DNA from: an uncultured Eubacteriales bacterium
GTDB taxonomy: Bacteria > Bacillota > Clostridia > Lachnospirales > Lachnospiraceae
Direction of reading: 5' to 3'
Length of the DNA stretch: 64,000 bases
NCBI GenBank assembly: GCA_949292785.1
Contig: CASFBK010000009.1
Coordinates: 143,326 to 207,325 of the forward strand
Part shown: one piece after another, positions 1,258 through 59,945 of the stretch
Position numbering within the stretch: position 1 is the first letter of the stretch
Layout: each line of letters starts with the position of its first letter
Notes under the pieces: generated by a model
Seen by the model: only the letters and a program-made list of their open reading frames with translations
Database searches by the model: none
Told to the model about the DNA's origin: nothing
Made by a program: the position numbers and the translations under genes

Positions 1258-2244
1258 TCAATTCAAATAATCAGAAACTATTTTTATAGCAATTTCCTTT
1301 GCCTTAGTGCTGGACACATCTTTATTATCCGTTTCACCTAAATATACACAAAAGTAAATTCTTTTCCCAGAAGTATCTGCAAAACCTGTAAACCATGAGT
1401 CAACGACAATACCATAACTCTTACCCATTCCTGTTTTTCCGTAAATTAAAATATTTGACTCATTTTGCTCTGACAACAGCATAACCTGTTTTAATTGGTT
1501 TCGTGTTTCTTCTAAATAATTTGTATTATCACCAAAAATGCGTTCAAGAACTTCTACCTGTTCCTTTGGTGAAATTAACAAGGATGATTCAATCCAAAAA
1601 CCCGTTAAAGCTGGATTTCTATTATTTGTATTTAATTTCCCACCCCAGTCAGAAATGTCACAATTACCATATTGAAGCTTGTTTAATTCATCTTGCATCA
1701 TATCTTTCCCAATTTCATCAATAACCTCTCGAAAATACCAGACACAAGAGACATGAAACGCCTCAGAAAAATCAATGTCCTTATTCCAGTCTTCGTTCCA
1801 GAATACTTCTCCACTCCATATATGGGTAGAATCATTAGGGTCAATTACTCCATTTTCCAAAGCAATTAAAGAAGAAATTATTTTAAAGGTAGAGCATGGC
1901 GAACGCCGAGTGAGTGCTAATTCCTGATTATATATCTGATAGCAATTCTCAACCGGGTCGTAGATAACAGCAGCACCATTTATTTCTTCAAAATAATTTG
2001 ACCAATCCACTTCTGTTATCATTGGCTCAACAACTTCTTCCTGAATTTCGTCTGTTGTTTCTTCTGTTTGCGTCATTTTTTCTGTTGATGATTTTTCCGT
2101 TAGGTTCATTTCTTCTGATACCTGCATTTCCAATGACTGATTATCGGTCAAACTATCGTTTTCTCTTGTACAACCTGCCAAAACTAACATTGAAAATATG
2201 AAAACACAATTACAGATTTTACATAATATATCTATTTTTCTCAT
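1258..2244 (-). CDS. Lipoprotein class D beta-lactamase (or BlaR1-sensor-like penicillin-binding protein)
   Basis: A 328-residue exported lipoprotein. The signal peptide ends in the lipobox LAGC (residues 22-25), followed by a Ser/Thr/Glu-rich tether to about residue 75. The rest matches class D serine beta-lactamases: active-site STFK (118-121), SCV (166-168), YGN (192-194), FWIESSL (216-222) and KTG (270-272). The same fold forms the sensor domain of BlaR1, but no membrane protease domain is attached and no blaI is adjacent, so an enzyme is the better reading. It would acylate with and hydrolyse beta-lactams at the outer face of the membrane. A 10-bp palindrome ACAACGTTGT lies about 60 bp upstream (2302-2311). 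Confidence 0.8.
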   Translation of the reverse strand: MRKIDILCKICNCVFIFSMLVLAGCTRENDSLTDNQSLEMQVSEEMNLTEKSSTEKMTQTEETTDEIQEEVVEPMITEVDWSNYFEEINGAAVIYDPVENCYQIYNQELALTRRSPCSTFKIISSLIALENGVIDPNDSTHIWSGEVFWNEDWNKDIDFSEAFHVSCVWYFREVIDEIGKDMMQDELNKLQYGNCDISDWGGKLNTNNRNPALTGFWIESSLLISPKEQVEVLERIFGDNTNYLEETRNQLKQVMLLSEQNESNILIYGKTGMGKSYGIVVDSWFTGFADTSGKRIYFCVYLGETDNKDVSSTKAKEIAIKIVSDYLN

Positions 2245-36385: not shown

Positions 36386-36529
36386 TATCATACCATTGGT
36401 GTGAAAGGCTTGCAAGAAAAAGAATCATTTTCAAAGCCCTGCCAGCATCATACACATCAACTGGTCTCTTCGCACGGCATCCTCTTTTCCTTTGACATCT
36501 TGAGAACTCCTCATTATAATACAACGAAA
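36386..36529 (-). promoter_or_regulatory. Leader region upstream of cbiD with possible short coupled frames
   Basis: A TATAAT at about 36518-36523 on the minus strand is followed by GAGGAG and, 8 bases on, a 13-codon frame (MSKEKRMPCEETS). Its TGA overlaps the ATG of an 8-codon frame (MCMMLAGL). TTGCAA-N17-TATGAT (about 36386-36414) follows. No cobalamin-riboswitch box was recognised. Whether these frames are translated is unknown. Confidence 0.4.
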
Positions 36530-36560
36530 AAACAGTGCATGCATTTCTACACACACTGTT
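36530..36560 (-). terminator. Intrinsic terminator after the GH16-GH64 gene
   Basis: The arms AACAGTG / CACTGTT (7 bp) enclose about 16 bases and are followed on the minus strand by TTTTTTCG. It lies 25 bp after the stop of the glucanase gene. Confidence 0.75.
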
Positions 36561-36583
36561 CTTCTCTTTTTACAATATCTAAT

Positions 36584-39500
36584 TTACCACTTCAAATCAA
36601 CAATCAATCCGGTTGGATTGGTGTAATGTAGTAAGGTACTATAATCAAATACATCATCATAGCAGAATCCATATGCATCTCCATTGACACTGTGGTCATG
36701 CCAGAACTTTGCATAATAGTTGCATGGAGCCTGCTGATAGAAGTACTGTGCATTTGACCACTGCTCCGGATTCAGTGCAACGCCGCGGTTTAATGCCGCA
36801 CACAACTGTGCTTCTACTACTTTTTCCATTGTTGTACCGGAATCTAAGGTTCCTTTTCCTTCGAATACATCCTGAGTGGTTGGCTTATGTACAACGATGT
36901 CACTTGCTCCGCCATCTTTGCTAAATATCATATCGTCTCCCACTACACGACCGCGGAATTCTCCAGCTTCACACTGGAATACCAGGTCTTTGGTGCGGTA
37001 GGTATCCCATACCAGATTAATATATTCGTCAAAATAGTTTCCATTCGCCTGTCCTGCGTTAAAGGTGGACTTGCAAGGCGCTACGATACGGTACTCATTG
37101 ATAAGGCTCTTAAATGCTTCCGGAACTTCTGAAGCAAATGCACTATAAATTTCGTCTCTTGTTCCTACGTCACCAACTGTTTTGTCATAAACATCGGAAT
37201 CGCCCGGAACACGGTCATAACCACCTTCTCCAAACAAACGGGTTACAACTGGGAAACAGAAATTATCTACACGTGTTGTATTGCCCCAGTATTCACCATT
37301 TTTCAGAGTAAACTCAATAAACTCAAAGTACACATCCTGATTTGGGTCGCTTGGGTTATTCAGGTCAGGTCCTGCAAATCCCATATTTCCGTTTATATCC
37401 TGATTGATGGTAACGTAAACAGGAGAACCATAGCTTAAATACATTCTTCCTGAAACTATATTGGGAAGGGATACCCAGTTTGCTTCTGCTAAGCTGTAAT
37501 AAATATCAGCACACTTTCTATCCCCTTTTTGAATAGTATTCAATGCTGTGGTTGCTTCCACTAAATTGCCATCCTTATCTACATAGCAGAGTTTTCCTGT
37601 TTCCGGATGATAACCTACTACCAACCAATAAATCTCGCTGTCGCTGAATTTTCCATTTGTTTTATTGTTCAGCCGTAAGGTCATAGCTCCATTGCCTGTT
37701 GGAACGGTTGGAAGAGTTCCGGTATTCCCTGTACTTCCAGCCTCTTCTTTAACAGTACCATATATCTCTGCTTCATAGAGAGAGTAGCCATATGGCAATG
37801 CTCTTTCGATTCCTTGAATCTTCACATAACGAGCGTCTACTCCGGCAAAGGAACTTTTCTCAACACCGCCTGCTCCATTTTCCTGAGTTGCTACTGTCTT
37901 ATACTGGTTTCCATCTGTGGACACCTGAATCTCGTATTTCTTTCCGTATGCTGCTTCCCAATTCAATACTACTTCACTGATATGACATGTTGCTCCTAAA
38001 TCAATCACAGCCCATGCATCATCAGCAAAATTAGAAGACCATCTGGTATCTGCATTGCCATCTACCATATTTGCAGCCGGATAACTATCGTTTTCCACAC
38101 CGGAAACAGTTACCTGTTTTCCTGTTGCCAGATTTACTGTAGCAACCGGTACTTCTGGAGATGTGGTTCCGCTCTGATTCTCATCACTTTCTGCTGGTAA
38201 AACAAATGTTTCCCACTGGGTATCCAGTGCTCCGTTTCCCAGATTATAAGTAAAGAAGTATTCAATGGTATCTCCTGTGGAAAGTCCTGTTACCTGATAG
38301 GTATAGTTTCCATTTCCATCAGACTGCATTCCTACATTTACCTGTCCGCCACCGTTCACTTTATAATGAACATCTGCGAACGTTGCTCCATTTACATAGA
38401 ATTCTACGGTTCCATCCGTTCTCTTCAATCCGCATACCTCGTCACCTCTTACATTTGTAACAGAGGAAGACGGTGTCTCTGGCTCTACCGGTATCTCCGG
38501 GTCCACCGGTGTCTCCGGCTCTACCGGTGTCTCCGTATCTGCCGGCGCTTCTGTGGTATTGTTGGTATATGTGCTATTGGTACTCTCCGGATCCTGATAT
38601 ACACGTACATAATCTACCTGCATATTAGCCGGAATATCTCCCGGATTTGGAGTCACTCCTCCATCAAACCATCCGCCTACTGCAAGATTCATAACAATAT
38701 AAAATTCCTGGTCAAATGGTGCTCCTGAAGTTTCCCCATTTGCAGTTGTAAACCATTTATCACTGCTGATTGCAGAATAACAGGTGCCATCTACATACCA
38801 TTTAATCATATCCTGTTCCCAGACAACACTGTAAACATGCCAGTCGGTCATGTCTGTTCCTTCCGGGAAGGTATATGCATTACTTAAATTCCTATTTCCT
38901 GGATAAGTTCCACCAAAATGAATGGTTCCATACACATTATCGGGATATCTTCCCTTTGCTTCCATAACATCCAGCTCGCCAGATGCCGCCCATGTACCAT
39001 AGCTTTCATCATTTGGAAGCATCCAGAGTGCCGGCCATACGCCCTGCCCTGTCGGCAGTTTTGCACGGAAATCAATTCTTCCATATTTAAATGTAAACTT
39101 GTCTTTGGAAGTTATTTTTCCAGAAGAATACTGTGCTACACGATTTGGGTCAATTTCCGGGAAAGTAGTCGGTTCTTCATACGCAGTTAGATTCAGGCTG
39201 CCGTCCTTGACAGATACATTCTTCTCGCTGTCCGTATAGTATTCCAACTCAGCATTTCCCCACCCCCATGTATTCGGGTCACTATTCAAATAATATCCTG
39301 TATTATAATTCCATGCACCGGTATTCAGTGCATCTCCCTTGAATTCTTCGCCCCAGATATAATTCCATCCTTCAATCTGGGCATTTTCTGATGTTCCAAG
39401 CTCCAATGGTGCAAAGTCTTCCGGATTTGGTCTTGGTGCATGCGGATTTCCTACAAAATTGTAGTATACATAATTATCTCCGATTGCTCCTCCTGCCTGT

Positions 39501-40642
39501 CCATTTGTCGGATATCCAATACGCAGCTGCATATCCTCCTGAATTGGCTGGAACCATAATCCATAAATACCGTCTACCCAGTAGCCCCACTGGTTTTTTT
39601 CATTTATATCACTGTAGCCATTTCCCTGATAGATAAATCCACTCTGATTGTAGTCAGCCAGATTTACCCATGTACCATCCTTGTATACTTCATACACGAA
39701 ATTTCCAAGCTCTGAATTCACCGGATAAGTTCCATCAATACGTGGAAGTGGTATACCGATTGCTCCTGATTCGCCTGCTGTATAAGTTGTCTGGTCCGCA
39801 GATAATTTGTACTCTGTTCTGACCGGCTCGCTATACTTAATCGTATAATCCAGATATACCTGTGGAGAGGTCTTAGATTCCAGTCTTACCTTCGTAGTCT
39901 TTTCTACCTGAAACCAATATCCTCCATCTCCATCCCAGAACTGTCCGAAATTCTGGTCATAAATCCATCCGCTTGCTGCATTATTATTAATATCAATCCA
40001 TGCCGACTGTTCCTCAGACCATACGGACACCTTTAAATCCTCAGCTACCTGCTCATACTTTATACTACTGTCTCCATTAAATGTGGGATAGGTAAATCCT
40101 ATGCTTCCGGTTACTCCCGCCTCAAGCTCAGGTCCCTGCGTAGCTGTCATAGATGTAATTACTGTTTTATCTAACTTATGAAACTCCAAAGTATAATCCA
40201 ATGTAACTTCCGGATTTGCCTTAGATGCCAACTGCAGATATGTATTCTCAGATACTTTAAACCAGTATCCACTAAATCCACTGTCATTCCAATGTCCCCA
40301 GTTATTGTTATAAACAAAACTGCTGACAGTATCGATATCTTTCCAGACTCCATCTACTTTTACATTTACCTGCAAATCTCCTGCTACATCAGAAAATGAT
40401 GCAGCTCCGCCGTTAAACACTGGCATCACAAATCCATAACTGGCGTCTTCCACCCCTGAACCAGTCATAACCGGTCCATCATTCGTAGAATAATAATCCA
40501 TTGATGTAATGGTCGTTCCACTTGCCGCCATTACAAACCTCCCTGTTGGCATAATAAGTCCGGCTACCATGGCAAAAAGCACCAACACCCCTAGCGCTCT
40601 TTTCCATTTTCTGGCACCGGATGCCAAAAACTTTTGCAACAT
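36584..40642 (-). CDS. Secreted multidomain beta-1,3-glucanase with GH16 and GH64 catalytic domains
   Basis: A 1352-residue exported enzyme. The signal peptide ends near VMAA (residue 40). Residues 44-155, 160-272 and 274-398 are three related modules sharing a G-x-WF pattern and a closing Tyr-rich strand; they match no family I know. Residues 425-684 are GH16, with catalytic GELDVME (E556, D558, E561), the laminarinase form. A Pro/Glu/Thr linker leads to a CBM56-like module (728-806, FADVHYKVNGGGQVNV) and an F5/8-type CBM32 (835-962). Residues about 985-1352 resemble GH64, with E1110 and D1126 spaced by 16 as in the known E154/D170 pair, plus LCAALNRG and DAYGFCYDDVFDY. It would cut laminarin, yeast glucan or callose outside the cell. 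No anchor was seen. Confidence 0.9.
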   Translation of the reverse strand: MLQKFLASGARKWKRALGVLVLFAMVAGLIMPTGRFVMAASGTTITSMDYYSTNDGPVMTGSGVEDASYGFVMPVFNGGAASFSDVAGDLQVNVKVDGVWKDIDTVSSFVYNNNWGHWNDSGFSGYWFKVSENTYLQLASKANPEVTLDYTLEFHKLDKTVITSMTATQGPELEAGVTGSIGFTYPTFNGDSSIKYEQVAEDLKVSVWSEEQSAWIDINNNAASGWIYDQNFGQFWDGDGGYWFQVEKTTKVRLESKTSPQVYLDYTIKYSEPVRTEYKLSADQTTYTAGESGAIGIPLPRIDGTYPVNSELGNFVYEVYKDGTWVNLADYNQSGFIYQGNGYSDINEKNQWGYWVDGIYGLWFQPIQEDMQLRIGYPTNGQAGGAIGDNYVYYNFVGNPHAPRPNPEDFAPLELGTSENAQIEGWNYIWGEEFKGDALNTGAWNYNTGYYLNSDPNTWGWGNAELEYYTDSEKNVSVKDGSLNLTAYEEPTTFPEIDPNRVAQYSSGKITSKDKFTFKYGRIDFRAKLPTGQGVWPALWMLPNDESYGTWAASGELDVMEAKGRYPDNVYGTIHFGGTYPGNRNLSNAYTFPEGTDMTDWHVYSVVWEQDMIKWYVDGTCYSAISSDKWFTTANGETSGAPFDQEFYIVMNLAVGGWFDGGVTPNPGDIPANMQVDYVRVYQDPESTNSTYTNNTTEAPADTETPVEPETPVDPEIPVEPETPSSSVTNVRGDEVCGLKRTDGTVEFYVNGATFADVHYKVNGGGQVNVGMQSDGNGNYTYQVTGLSTGDTIEYFFTYNLGNGALDTQWETFVLPAESDENQSGTTSPEVPVATVNLATGKQVTVSGVENDSYPAANMVDGNADTRWSSNFADDAWAVIDLGATCHISEVVLNWEAAYGKKYEIQVSTDGNQYKTVATQENGAGGVEKSSFAGVDARYVKIQGIERALPYGYSLYEAEIYGTVKEEAGSTGNTGTLPTVPTGNGAMTLRLNNKTNGKFSDSEIYWLVVGYHPETGKLCYVDKDGNLVEATTALNTIQKGDRKCADIYYSLAEANWVSLPNIVSGRMYLSYGSPVYVTINQDINGNMGFAGPDLNNPSDPNQDVYFEFIEFTLKNGEYWGNTTRVDNFCFPVVTRLFGEGGYDRVPGDSDVYDKTVGDVGTRDEIYSAFASEVPEAFKSLINEYRIVAPCKSTFNAGQANGNYFDEYINLVWDTYRTKDLVFQCEAGEFRGRVVGDDMIFSKDGGASDIVVHKPTTQDVFEGKGTLDSGTTMEKVVEAQLCAALNRGVALNPEQWSNAQYFYQQAPCNYYAKFWHDHSVNGDAYGFCYDDVFDYSTLLHYTNPTGLIVDLKW

Positions 40643-40955
40643 AAATCTCCTCCTTATAATTAATTATTTTTTTAGACTGAAAATTCAATCTCTTTGTATT
40701 ATACGTTTCTCTTTTTCTGAAAAAAGTATCTTTTTTTATACCAAGTATTCTTTTTTTATAATCAGTTTCCATTTTCTTCTTTTTCACCATATTTCGCCCT
40801 ATTCTTTTCAAAAAATCATGTCATTCTATATAAAAAATAATATATATAACACCCAAAATCATACATACAATACAAAGAAATTATCTTCACGCAAAAAAAT
40901 CGTGCACATACAAATCTTATCTCTACATGAATTCTGTGTAATTTTTTTTGCTCTC
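40643..40955. other. AT-rich divergent regulatory region
   Basis: It lies between the glucanase gene (minus) and the preQ1 promoter (plus). On the minus strand AAGGAGGAG precedes the glucanase ATG, and TATAAT (40698-40703) is a likely -10 without a good -35. Two direct repeats sit at 40724-40740 and 40743-40760 (next entry). The remaining 190 bp are AT-rich with no recognisable gene. Confidence 0.6.
40724..40760 (-). promoter_or_regulatory. Direct repeat, likely activator site upstream of the glucanase promoter
   Basis: AAGTATC-TTTTTTTATA and AAGTATTC-TTTTTTTATA are two copies in tandem (period 19-20 bp), 21-57 bp upstream of the presumed -10. Spacing of about two helical turns and the weak -35 fit a response regulator or AraC-type activator. 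No such activator gene is adjacent. Confidence 0.55.
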
Positions 40956-56632: not shown

Positions 56633-57742
56633 TTAACCTTTAAAATCCCGAATCACTTCCAGTGCGGGAAGGGCATTTCCCTCGTAGTCAAACAATGCCT
56701 GATTTGCCCATTCGTTTCCGCAGGGTCCCTTATCCTTCATATACTTAAGAGAGGCTTCCGTTGCCCAGCCGGAACCAGAAATTGGAATCCACGCCGGCTC
56801 CCAGTAATAAAATCCACGTCCCTTGTTTTCCGGTATCTCTTTTAGCCGCTTCATTATATCCAGTATAAAGTCACTCTGCCCCTGCTTTGTCATGGGATAC
56901 TCTATCTTTTCTACCAAAGAAGGCTTGGTTGCCATACCCTTTCGTTCCTGTGGCTCCAGTTTTTCATAGGCTGCATAGTCCTCCATGGTATAGCCCATAG
57001 ATACCTCTGCTATTATCACTTCTTTGTTGTAACGCTTCGCAATATCCTTCATGTTATTGCTAAGGCTATCAAGGCTTCCATGCCAGAAGGGATAATAGGA
57101 CAAGCCAATCACATCAAAATCCTCGCCCCGTTTACAATAATTGTCAAACCATCTGCGGTACAGCTCGTTATTTCCTCCGTTATCCAGATGAATCATAATC
57201 TTCATATTCGGAATTACCGCCTTTACGCCGCGGATTCCGCTACTTACAAATCTTGCAAGGTTATCGTAGTTGGGAACCTCACCCTCCGGCCAGAGAATTC
57301 CATTAGAGAGCTCATTTCCCACCTGAACCATGGTCGGAACCGCATCTGCCTTAACCATAGCCTCCATGACCGCTACAGTATAATCATACATTGCCTGTTC
57401 CAGCTCTTCCAGGGAATAATTCCTCCATGCCTTTGGCTTTATCTGCTTGCCCGGGTCGGTCCAGAAATCGCTGTAATGAAGGTTCAGCAGAAAATCCAGC
57501 CCCCTTTGCCGCACCTTTTTTGCCATCTGAAGAGTAACTGCAAGGTCATTTGTGCCCGCTCCGTAAGGCTCTCCGGACTCCGAATAAGGATTGTGCCACA
57601 AACGCAGGCGCACCGCGTTAATGTCATATTCCATCAGAATGTCCAGCACATCGCCTTCTACTCCGTGATTATAATATTTCACTCCAAGCCTCTCTAGCTC
57701 TGCCATAGTAGACAAATCCACACCCTTGATAAATTCTTCCAT
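56633..57742 (-). CDS. GH53 endo-beta-1,4-galactanase
   Basis: A glycoside hydrolase of about 369 residues that cuts beta-1,4-galactan side chains of pectin. GH53 motifs are FIKGVDLSTMAELE, INAVRLRLWHNPY and LLNLHYSDFWTDPGKQIKPKAW, then the acid/base Glu in MVQVGNELSNGILWPEG and the nucleophile Glu in EVIIAEVSMGYT. No signal peptide is present, so it should act on imported oligosaccharides in the cytoplasm. The ATG at 57742 follows GGGAGGGAAAAG and is preferred to an in-frame ATG at 57820. Last gene of its operon. Confidence 0.92.
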   Translation of the reverse strand: MEEFIKGVDLSTMAELERLGVKYYNHGVEGDVLDILMEYDINAVRLRLWHNPYSESGEPYGAGTNDLAVTLQMAKKVRQRGLDFLLNLHYSDFWTDPGKQIKPKAWRNYSLEELEQAMYDYTVAVMEAMVKADAVPTMVQVGNELSNGILWPEGEVPNYDNLARFVSSGIRGVKAVIPNMKIMIHLDNGGNNELYRRWFDNYCKRGEDFDVIGLSYYPFWHGSLDSLSNNMKDIAKRYNKEVIIAEVSMGYTMEDYAAYEKLEPQERKGMATKPSLVEKIEYPMTKQGQSDFILDIMKRLKEIPENKGRGFYYWEPAWIPISGSGWATEASLKYMKDKGPCGNEWANQALFDYEGNALPALEVIRDFKG

Positions 57743-57825
57743 TCTTTTCCCTCCCTTTGTGCCAAAACAGGGAACGAAGCCTTTTTTTTCTTCATTCCCT
57801 GTTTTTATTTGATTTTTCACCTTAC

Positions 57826-58044
57826 TTAATCGAAATCAAACTTCTCAAAACGTTTCATCATATCGCGATAACGGAACCGTACCATTTCATTTTTTGCCAG
57901 AACATCTTCTTCTGTTCCGCTGTACTGACAACGAATGCAGTAATATTCTTTTTTCTCTTTGTCATAGAACATATCAATGTCCAAGTCCCTCATAAAGCAG
58001 GACGGACAACGGTAATTTAATTTGCCTTTTCCAGATTGAGCCAT
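57826..58044 (-). CDS. Small zinc-ribbon protein
   Basis: A 72-residue protein with two C-x2-C knuckles, YRCPSCFMRD and YYCIRCQYSG (C13, C16, C36, C39), consistent with one bound zinc. The C-terminal third is charged and helical. AAGGAGG precedes the ATG. It overlaps the end of the upstream gene by 28 bp and may be translationally coupled to it. Function is unknown. Confidence 0.8.
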   Translation of the reverse strand: MAQSGKGKLNYRCPSCFMRDLDIDMFYDKEKKEYYCIRCQYSGTEEDVLAKNEMVRFRYRDMMKRFEKFDFD

Positions 58045-59849
58045 GTCGCAAATACCTCCTTATCCGAAACTTTTTTCTTATATCCCAATGTAAACATCGG
58101 GGAGAATGCGTAACCTTCCTTTATGTATCCTTCTGCATCAGCGGAAGGAGTCAGAGATACTTTTGTCTGGATAGCCGGAATCACTGCGCTGACTGCTTTT
58201 GCGCCTTCCAGGCTCTCTTCTCTGCACTTATACTCGTAAGAAATGCTCTTTGTCTCACTTCCTTCACACGCCAGCGTAATTCCGGTCATATCCTCCGGAT
58301 ATTCTGTTGTGCCATAGCATGCTACCATGTATTCGTTCAGTTCTACTTCTGCCGCGGGGTCGCTCATCTCTAAAATGGTTCTTTCCATCTTGATATTGGA
58401 TGCCCCTTCCTCAAAGGAAATCTTTGTCTGAAGCTTTACGGTCAGGTCCGCAAATTCAATCTCCACCGGATCAAGGGTCAGGATACGGGTATTTCCTTCC
58501 TGTGAAAAATGAGCCTTGGTGCGGCATAAGCACAAGTCTACTTCTTCTCCGTTGTGGGAAAGCTTTGCACTGCGCACAGTTCCTTCTCCTGCATAATGGG
58601 TAAAATAGCCGGCACGATATTTTTCCTGAATCAGGAATGGATACGAAGCATCCTGTACATGCGGTGTTCCGATTCCTACCTGCCACTCCAGCTTTGCTGC
58701 ATACGGGCGAAGGTCAACGATAGCGCCGCCCTGGTCCATATTGACGCAGGCTCTCATATATGGGTCTGTGTACCAGAAGACCTGCTTGTCAGAGCCATAG
58801 AGAATGTCTCTCCAAAGCGCACATTCCGGCTCTTTATATGATTTTTTCTGACGGTAGTAATCGGCAAACTCTGCCATAGTCATATCAATGAGCTTTCCTT
58901 CTTTTTTCAATTTTCCATAGTAAGCACAACCGTCTGAATAGGATTTTTCCAATAATTCGTATGGTGCCTCCCAGCGTCCCATTTTGTTCATCCAGCCCGG
59001 TCCTACAAACATCATATTATAAGCATACCCGTTGTTGTATTTTTCCAAAGAACGATACTGGTCAATCAGGTTATACAGATAAGGATATTCCCAGGTCTTG
59101 GAATCATAAATCATACCGCGCAGTACGTTCTGGGGATGGGTTCCGAAGTTGGAGCCGTTTCCGTCATAGCAAGCCAGCAGGTCGCGGGATAAGTGTGGAA
59201 TCGCTACAATTCCGGAGTCTTCACTCTCATCTGCCGCCGGTGCATGGGTATTCTGCTTAGAAGGAATCCACGGCGCCCATGGACCACCATCGAATAAGGT
59301 ATACCAGGAATTGTTACAGGTGTGATATGCCTTGGGTCCTTCTTCCCAACAGGTTGCAACGGCGCATTTTACCATAGGATATTTCTCTTTGATATAATTG
59401 GTCAGGTCTGCATCCATGTAATAGGAACCGGTAGATTCCGGATAAAATCCAAAACGCTCATAAAACTTTTCAAACACATCATCTACAATGGATTTCTTAT
59501 CTTCCATGGAAAACATCCAGATACAAAAATCCTTGGTCTTGTATTTCTCACGAAATTCGTTACAAGGCAATCCCAACAGGGAGAGCGCAATCTCATCTCC
59601 ATATGTCTCATGGTCTGCTTTTGCTAACTCTACCGCTTCGTCATTGAAAAGACTTGCATATGTCATCTGTATGGTGGTTTTCAGTCCGTTCTCATGGGCA
59701 AGTCGCTGCTGTGTTTTGAAAATATCCAGTGATTCTGTCAGTAATGATTTTCTTCCGATATCCTCTTCCTTTCCATGTCCAGTTACTTTCTCCGCGTACT
59801 CTGGAACCATTTCCGGACGATGAATAATGTTTACCACAAATTTATCCAT
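58017..59849 (-). CDS. Large carbohydrate-operon protein of unknown family
   Basis: A cytoplasmic protein of about 610 residues, without a signal peptide. The N-terminal half looks like a (beta/alpha)-barrel or deacetylase-like domain (VNIIHRPEMVPEYAE, TTIQMTYASLFND, FYPESTGSYYMDADLTNYIKE, TCNNSWYTLFDGGPWAPW). The C-terminal half is beta-rich like carbohydrate-enzyme accessory domains. Co-location with GH53 and LacI-type operators suggests a role with sugar polymers or oligosaccharides, perhaps as a glycosidase. I cannot place it in a named family. The ATG at 59849 follows AAAAGGAGAG and replaces an upstream in-frame ATG at 59897. Confidence 0.75.
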   Translation of the reverse strand: MDKFVVNIIHRPEMVPEYAEKVTGHGKEEDIGRKSLLTESLDIFKTQQRLAHENGLKTTIQMTYASLFNDEAVELAKADHETYGDEIALSLLGLPCNEFREKYKTKDFCIWMFSMEDKKSIVDDVFEKFYERFGFYPESTGSYYMDADLTNYIKEKYPMVKCAVATCWEEGPKAYHTCNNSWYTLFDGGPWAPWIPSKQNTHAPAADESEDSGIVAIPHLSRDLLACYDGNGSNFGTHPQNVLRGMIYDSKTWEYPYLYNLIDQYRSLEKYNNGYAYNMMFVGPGWMNKMGRWEAPYELLEKSYSDGCAYYGKLKKEGKLIDMTMAEFADYYRQKKSYKEPECALWRDILYGSDKQVFWYTDPYMRACVNMDQGGAIVDLRPYAAKLEWQVGIGTPHVQDASYPFLIQEKYRAGYFTHYAGEGTVRSAKLSHNGEEVDLCLCRTKAHFSQEGNTRILTLDPVEIEFADLTVKLQTKISFEEGASNIKMERTILEMSDPAAEVELNEYMVACYGTTEYPEDMTGITLACEGSETKSISYEYKCREESLEGAKAVSAVIPAIQTKVSLTPSADAEGYIKEGYAFSPMFTLGYKKKVSDKEVFATWLNLEKAN

Positions 59850-59888
59850 GTTTTCTCTCCTTTTCTCTTGGTGCTCCCGTTGTTCACC

Positions 59889-59945
59889 GTTGCGCAATCG
59901 GTTGTTCTATAATTTGAGTATATCAACAATAATTTCTGTTGTCAA
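59889..59945 (-). promoter_or_regulatory. Promoter and first LacI-type operator of the GH53 operon
   Basis: Minus-strand TTGACA (59940-59945), a 17-bp spacer and TATACT (59917-59922) form a strong promoter. Just downstream lies a site with core TTGCGCAA (59889-59908), a central-CpG palindrome typical of LacI-family repressors. Confidence 0.82.

Follow-up and report, generated by a model that had tools for sequence, protein, structure and literature searches.

The window analyzed here, a 64,000-nucleotide stretch of contig CASFBK010000009.1 (positions 143,326 to 207,325) from an uncultured Lachnospiraceae bacterium (GCA_949292785.1), contains at positions 36584-40642, on the minus strand, a single open reading frame with an ATG start that encodes a putative secreted glucanase of 1352 amino acids. 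There are no N bases in the window. The domain order predicted from the sequence is signal peptide, three N-terminal repeats, GH16, CBM56, CBM32, and GH64:

40523..40642, minus strand: signal peptide, residues ~1-40 (basic N end and hydrophobic core, by eye)
40181..40513, minus strand: N-terminal repeat 1, residues 44-154 (self-comparison; model mostly beta strand)
39833..40162, minus strand: N-terminal repeat 2, residues 161-270 (self-comparison; model)
39443..39832, minus strand: N-terminal repeat 3, residues 271-400, with a weakly matching core at 288-376 (self-comparison; model)
38582..39382, minus strand: GH16 laminarinase-type catalytic domain, residues 421-687 (Pfam; PDB 4dfs/3azx; conservation)
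38438..38581, minus strand: Pro/Thr/Glu-rich linker, residues 688-735 (sequence; loci L011 and L125 have a Big_2 domain at the same place)
38207..38437, minus strand: CBM56, residues 736-812 (Pfam, 1.1e-23; BglH structure 7quz, 2.3e-32)
37757..38134, minus strand: CBM32 / F5-8 type C domain, residues 837-962 (Pfam; nearest solved kin 4zxe and 2rv9)
36587..37702, minus strand: GH64 beta-1,3-glucanase domain, residues 981-1352 (E1110/D1126)

The Pfam matches to GH16, CBM56, F5/8 type C, and GH64 all exceed the curated gathering scores. PF00722 (GH16) matches residues 470-631 (E 2.4e-21; 76.4 bits against a cut-off of 22), PF22184 (CBM56) residues 741-808 (E 1.1e-23; 83.7 bits against 27), the F5/8 type C profile residues 843-956 (E 2.1e-22), and PF16483 (GH64) residues 986-1349 (E 1.8e-83; 281.3 bits against 27), the last covering profile positions 2-369 of 370. 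A Big_2 domain was not reported in the protein by Pfam at E values up to 1; the linker at 688-735 stands there instead. Among solved structures, the GH16 part matches the laminarinase 4dfs/3azx (E about 2e-54), and the CBM32 part matches 4zxe and 2rv9, which are glucanase/chitosanase domains.

The residues expected for catalysis are present in both enzymatic domains. The GH16 motif ExDxxE appears as E556, D558, and E561 within GELDVMEA, and all three are kept in 30 of 30 GH16 rows, a set restricted to rows exceeding 150 aligned residues and 60 bits, so that shorter pieces such as L028 are left out. In the GH64 domain, E1110 lies in FEFIEFT and D1126 in TTRVD; the two align with the Glu and Asp of LPHase (3gd0), which we take to be the Streptomyces matensis enzyme, and also with 5h9x, the position aligned to E1110 being Glu in 5h9x and Ala in 5h9y. 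Of 87 GH64 rows, 85, all different, keep the pair; the remaining two are fragments without those columns. The best match to the GH64 part is 5h4e from Clostridium beijerinckii (sequence E 8.1e-105), which is also the best match to its thaumatin-like fold. A preliminary description of this DNA had proposed two beta-1,3-glucanase folds on one secreted 1352-residue chain, with CBM56 and CBM32 modules between them, and had named these five residues; the sequence and the Pfam and structure matches support these points. That description would have failed had the C-terminal third lacked a GH64 match or a thaumatin-like fold, and both are found there.

The N-terminal ~400 residues, which hold the three repeats, had gone undescribed there, and the strand had not been given. 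Repeats 1 and 2 match each other at ~54 bits, and repeat 3 matches either of them weakly, at 5 to 9 bits. The model of this region is mostly beta strand, with a mean predicted local distance difference test (pLDDT) score of 91; the 50 matches listed by a Foldseek search with it are mostly tandem Ig-like or cadherin-like modules, at template modeling (TM) scores mostly ~0.2. By analogy with the three N-terminal repeats of PglA, these repeats may bind beta-1,3-glucan.

The remainder of the genome supplies context for these domains. No second GH64 was found in it, and there are two further GH16 genes. The GH16 at locus L109 carries four CBM4_9 domains; the same locus contains a laminaribiose-phosphorylase-like gene (6ggy, 1.2e-301), a gene very like the diacetylchitobiose phosphorylase 8bou (1537 bits), and, by eye, an ABC sugar transporter (with a binding protein that has no Pfam match) and an AraC-type regulator. 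Locus L144 holds a second laminaribiose-phosphorylase-like gene, a GH161-like gene (9qqk, 1365 bits), and a GH30 gene whose closest solved chains are mostly glucosylceramidases. The genome also encodes a GH18 chitinase with CBM5/12; genes for both chitin and beta-1,3-glucan are present, and the fungal wall is therefore indicated. The chitinase and phosphorylase-like genes, all on other contigs, fit the use of fungal wall as food, with intracellular phosphorolysis of the released oligosaccharides. Sequential action on beta-1,3-oligosaccharides has been proposed for GH161 and GH94 in tandem, with GH161 needing at least three units (PMC6484121). Since GH161/GH94-like genes are present, there is a possible intracellular route for laminaripentaose made outside the cell.

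Three further observations concern these gene sets. Directly upstream of the laminaribiose-phosphorylase-like, GH161-like, and GH30 genes, L144:1612-3402 (G000 C10) encodes a 596-residue protein without a Pfam match, which could be an undescribed beta-glucan enzyme. At L146:3872-5955 (G000 C2), the sequence for a GH18-ChiC-CBM5/12 chitinase is divided between two overlapping reading frames, reflecting either a broken gene or a sequence error. A GH16 gene of the same genus (L112 / L019; G025 C4) has its frame interrupted by TGA.

We interpret the window protein as a secreted, multi-modular beta-1,3-glucan depolymerase in which a BglH/PglA-like endo-beta-1,3-glucanase is joined to a C-terminal laminaripentaose-type GH64 domain, and assign this reading a probability of roughly 0.75. 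Anchoring on insoluble beta-1,3-glucan, which chitin or chitosan may surround, would fall to the repeats, CBM56, and CBM32. Labor would be divided between a retaining GH16 domain, making internal cuts in accessible strands, and an inverting GH64 domain, attacking ordered (triple-helical) glucan to give short oligosaccharides of about five units; these would be imported and degraded in the cytoplasm by the GH161 and GH94 phosphorylases. The uniform products foreseen in the preliminary description are plausible by analogy with the GH64 family and with GluY of Cellulosimicrobium funkei, whose product is described as mainly laminaripentaose (PMC8394091), and the GH16 domain on the same chain could yield mixed lengths.

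Lachnospiraceae are a family common in guts, and the predicted targets of the two unrelated enzymes joined in this protein are beta-1,3-glucans of fungal, yeast, or algal material. To our knowledge, the breakdown of insoluble beta-1,3-glucan by Gram-positive gut bacteria has been little studied. Here an apparent endo-cutter, a laminaripentaose-type cutter, and several putative binders lie on one chain, in a genome with matching phosphorylase-like genes. The chain allows a direct test of whether covalent linkage of GH16 to GH64 produces synergy on triple-helical glucan, and it could be a natural scaffold for making defined laminari-oligosaccharides.

Several points weigh against this interpretation. 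Both the enzymatic activity and the glucan binding of the protein are predictions. NCBIfam returned GH16-type matches to the GH16 part, every one of them far under cut-off, and the structure model of the GH64 domain is moderate (mean pLDDT 67.5). No CBM appears among the 50 Foldseek matches listed for the repeat model, where the absence of a specific match carries no meaning. Promoter-like sites around the gene are at chance level (12 found against 14.0 expected), and by eye the gene lies outside any glucan locus, so that any co-regulation with the phosphorylases is hypothetical. No beta-1,6-glucanase is among the 20 matches listed for the L144 GH30. As to substrate, laminarin and cereal glucan are possible, and the CBM56 of PsLam81A, which was of help with the linear glucans curdlan and pachyman and of none with yeast beta-glucan or laminarin, would by analogy speak against yeast glucan as a special target of CBM56 (PMC9609564).

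The strongest of the alternatives, which we nonetheless consider unlikely, is that the main substrate is soluble algal laminarin, plant callose, or mixed-linkage food glucan, and not fungal wall. GH16 laminarinases are broad in specificity. L109 is similar in layout to a locus for mixed-linkage glucan in Blautia producta, where the GH16 is described as also cutting laminarin and yeast beta-glucan (PMC10318527). The published CBM56 result counts on both sides, as no help to PsLam81A on yeast beta-glucan and as help on insoluble linear beta-1,3-glucan (PMC9609564), and the CBM5/12 chitinase, together with the diacetylchitobiose-phosphorylase-like gene in L109, points to a chitin-glucan wall. The fungal or yeast glucan named in the preliminary description is thus favored by genome context, with other beta-1,3-glucans possible as well.

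It is considerably less probable that only one of the two catalytic domains works, the other being a substrate-binding module whose catalytic residues are kept by recent ancestry. Some thaumatin-like proteins (TLPs) bind beta-glucan though they are not known glycosidases. GH64 is placed within a GH64-TLP superfamily (PMC13251364); however, all five catalytic residues are present here and kept in relatives, and the GH64 domain is full length.

The distribution of GH64 shows how uncommon the pairing is. GH64 occurs in 6 of 397 genomes of the family sample (Lachnospiraceae) and in 2 of 398 of the phylum sample, the window genome included in both, and is absent from the 28 other genomes of the same genus. 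The GH64 loci surveyed were 80 of the 186 relatives found by contig scan; GH16 lies in the same frame in 3 of them, in another frame of the locus in 15, and nowhere in the remaining 62. All three same-frame loci are labeled Lachnospiraceae: L030 (Butyrivibrio sp. MC2013; 1524 amino acids), L095 (a metagenome-assembled genome, MAG, from reindeer), and L028 (a rumen MAG). L095 ends at a contig end within GH64, the remainder of which may be held by L091 of the same MAG, and L028 begins at a contig start within GH16. In 10 of the 15 separate-frame loci, the GH16 frame is within ~620 bases of GH64 on the same strand (L071, L096, L097, L098, L099, L101, L102, L103, L104, and L106). GH16 and GH64 are likewise neighboring genes on a Streptomyces yangpuensis plasmid. 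In genome G151 (L011), the gene for a 1015-residue repeats-GH16-Big_2-CBM56-CBM32 protein, which has nearly the layout of the window protein minus GH64, is immediately preceded on its upstream side by a CBM56-ricin-GH64 gene.

Sample f56, which holds Paenibacillus and Cohnella records, has GH64 in 61 of 344 genomes; none of its 9 GH64 frames longer than 600 amino acids has GH16 in frame, and for 4 of them the adjacent gene carries GH16 (frames of 600 amino acids or fewer were judged by length alone). Of the 93 records returned by a plasmid search, none spans 80% of the query; among the matches, 10 rows were inspected and 3 records opened. One plasmid, of Paenibacillus cellulosilyticus (L151), carries an 881-residue frame that combines repeats with GH16 and CBM56; the C-terminal end of this frame matches BglH (7quz) at 1.5e-81. 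In the family sample, the repeat triplet was found in 8 of 397 genomes, always ahead of a GH16. Four of these eight also have GH64: the window genome on one chain, G151 next door, and G333 and G417 elsewhere (Fisher p 1.0e-6, uncorrected for kinship, with both counts taken as coming from the same 397 genomes, whose handles agree).

The GH16+GH64 pairing is therefore uncommon, with each part known, recurring as neighboring genes and in three more fused examples. The preliminary description knew of no such enzyme from a gut Firmicute; no paper found in the open literature, to which the search extended (subscription papers and CAZy lying outside it), names a GH16-GH64 chain, but the same pairing exists in these three other Lachnospiraceae records and all of its parts are of known kinds. 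That misassembly fused two separate genes is very improbable and was rejected: the one-chain pairing occurs in only 1 of the 397 family genomes, the window's own, but the frame is open throughout and free of N, GC content in the folded domains (0.415-0.432, against 0.425 for the whole window) and at third codon positions is even, and the domain order is repeated in the three other records, one of them from a named strain and not a MAG.

Trees were built from 10 repeat+GH16 rows, 30 GH16-only rows, and 87 GH64 rows, and the clades tested on them were defined after the architectures, and partly after the trees, were known. In the repeat+GH16 tree, the Butyrivibrio-type fused proteins group with the unfused L124, apart from the window protein; a clade restricted to fused proteins is rejected (approximately unbiased test, p-AU 3.35e-6), since the sister of L030 is L124. 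Grouping the window protein with L030, L095, and L124, as a single fusion and a subsequent loss would predict, gives a borderline p of 0.055, short of rejection; its grouping with L011 and L125 is not rejected either (p 0.159; with L011 alone, p 0.038). The GH16-only tree leaves the position of the window protein unfixed. In the GH64 tree, it is placed outside the 50 remaining rows of its group (100/96), which are mostly labeled Lachnospiraceae and Eubacteriaceae, and the other fused proteins sit with the stand-alone L053, L029, and L031 (98/89); a fused-only clade has p 0.0505, and that clade plus the three stand-alone proteins p 0.19. The signal peptide of L053 resembles by eye that of L095, which would suit a loss of the repeats and GH16 from L053. 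One fusion and several fusions are not told apart by these trees. The neighboring GH64 of G151 (L011), 50% identical over 304 residues, was rejected as direct source of the fused GH64 because it is of a short type and lies upstream. We regard as tentative, and on balance doubtful, a more specific scenario in which the chain would act as a wall-to-oligosaccharide machine, GH16 and then GH64 working on the same bound fiber with product lengths suited to GH161/GH94, after the two enzymes, whose genes adjoin in Paenibacillaceae, spirochaetes, and a Streptomyces, had become one chain in Lachnospiraceae, perhaps repeatedly.

Within the window, two features flank the glucanase gene:

40647..40655, minus strand: ribosome-binding-like sequence AAGGAGGAG, 4 bases 5' of the ATG (from sequence)
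36527..36564, minus strand: terminator-like hairpin of 17 pairs, just past the glucanase stop codon

The gene resembles a single-gene unit because it has this AAGGAGGAG site, a signal peptide recognized by eye, and the hairpin after its stop. A local glucan locus around it was rejected, its neighbors being, by eye, cobalamin and unrelated genes; an arrangement like a Gram-positive polysaccharide utilization locus (gpPUL), with a glucanase beside a transporter and phosphorylase, is not found at the window gene, and such loci are L109 and L144 on other contigs. Next to the gene, positions 36415 back to 3691 of the window are occupied by genes of which many, by eye, serve cobalamin biosynthesis and show no obvious connection with the glucanase. 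A perfect sigma-70-type site, TTGACA-17-TATAAT, at 36492-36520 on the plus strand is oriented toward the glucanase gene, reading into its 3' end, and stops just short of the hairpin; it may belong to a small or antisense RNA, such sites overall being not above chance. Farther away, 1258-2244 (minus strand) encodes a protein predicted by eye to be a lipoprotein, bearing a domain of the penicillin-binding transpeptidase type (PF00905) and resembling, again by eye, a class D beta-lactamase or a sensor domain, and 58017-59897 (minus strand) encodes a 626-residue protein without a Pfam match, adjoining a GH53 galactanase gene at 56633-57820.

Among characterized enzymes, PglA of Paenibacillus sp. 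S09 (876 amino acids) is described as sharing with the window protein a signal peptide, three N-terminal repeats, GH16, and a glucan-binding C-terminal part (PMC4219603). According to the same account, PglA is 76% identical to BglH, insoluble beta-1,3-glucan is bound by its N-terminal as well as its C-terminal part, and the latter includes an Ig-like domain that a domain search did not find in BglH (PMC4219603). The CBM56 region of the window protein matches the structure (7quz) of BglH from Bacillus circulans IAM1165. Of the traits of this type, the window protein has the three repeats before GH16 (the third weak) and CBM56 after it; compared with BglH and PglA, it has no detectable Ig-like (Big_2) domain, and its CBM32 and entire GH64 are additional. 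By analogy, its first two thirds are BglH/PglA-like and would work in the same way, the link running through L151, the CBM56 structure, and the PglA description; we do not file it as PglA-type, because the Ig-like domain is undetected and the full BglH and PglA sequences lie outside the alignment.

At the other end of the chain, the GH64 domain has its fold and catalytic Glu/Asp pair in common with 5h9x (PbBgl64A of Paenibacillus barengoltzii) and 3gd0, and its fold, with a strong sequence match, in common with 5h4e. One segment (query 232-297) is mostly missing in PbBgl64A, whereas the alignments to 5h4e and LPHase span it. PbBgl64A also bears a CBM56, and GluY a ricin-like module; both are described with one catalytic domain, compared with two in the window protein (PMC8394091, PMC13251364). 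The BpGH16MLG locus of Blautia producta, with a GH16 bearing four CBM4, a GH94, and transporter genes, is arranged as in L109, a likeness that makes Blautia a guess for the genus of the window bacterium; its GH94 is described as inactive on laminaribiose, and the word GH64 is absent from the paper's main text (PMC10318527).

The closest architectures are those of the fused Lachnospiraceae proteins. L028, which begins within GH16, has no CBM56 match. L030 and L095 have three repeats, GH16, CBM56, and a C-terminal GH64, as in the window protein, to which L030 is 61% identical in the repeats, 67% in GH16, 68% in CBM56, and 66% in GH64; where the window protein has CBM32, proteins of the L030 type have ricin modules and, by eye, also crystallin-like sequence.

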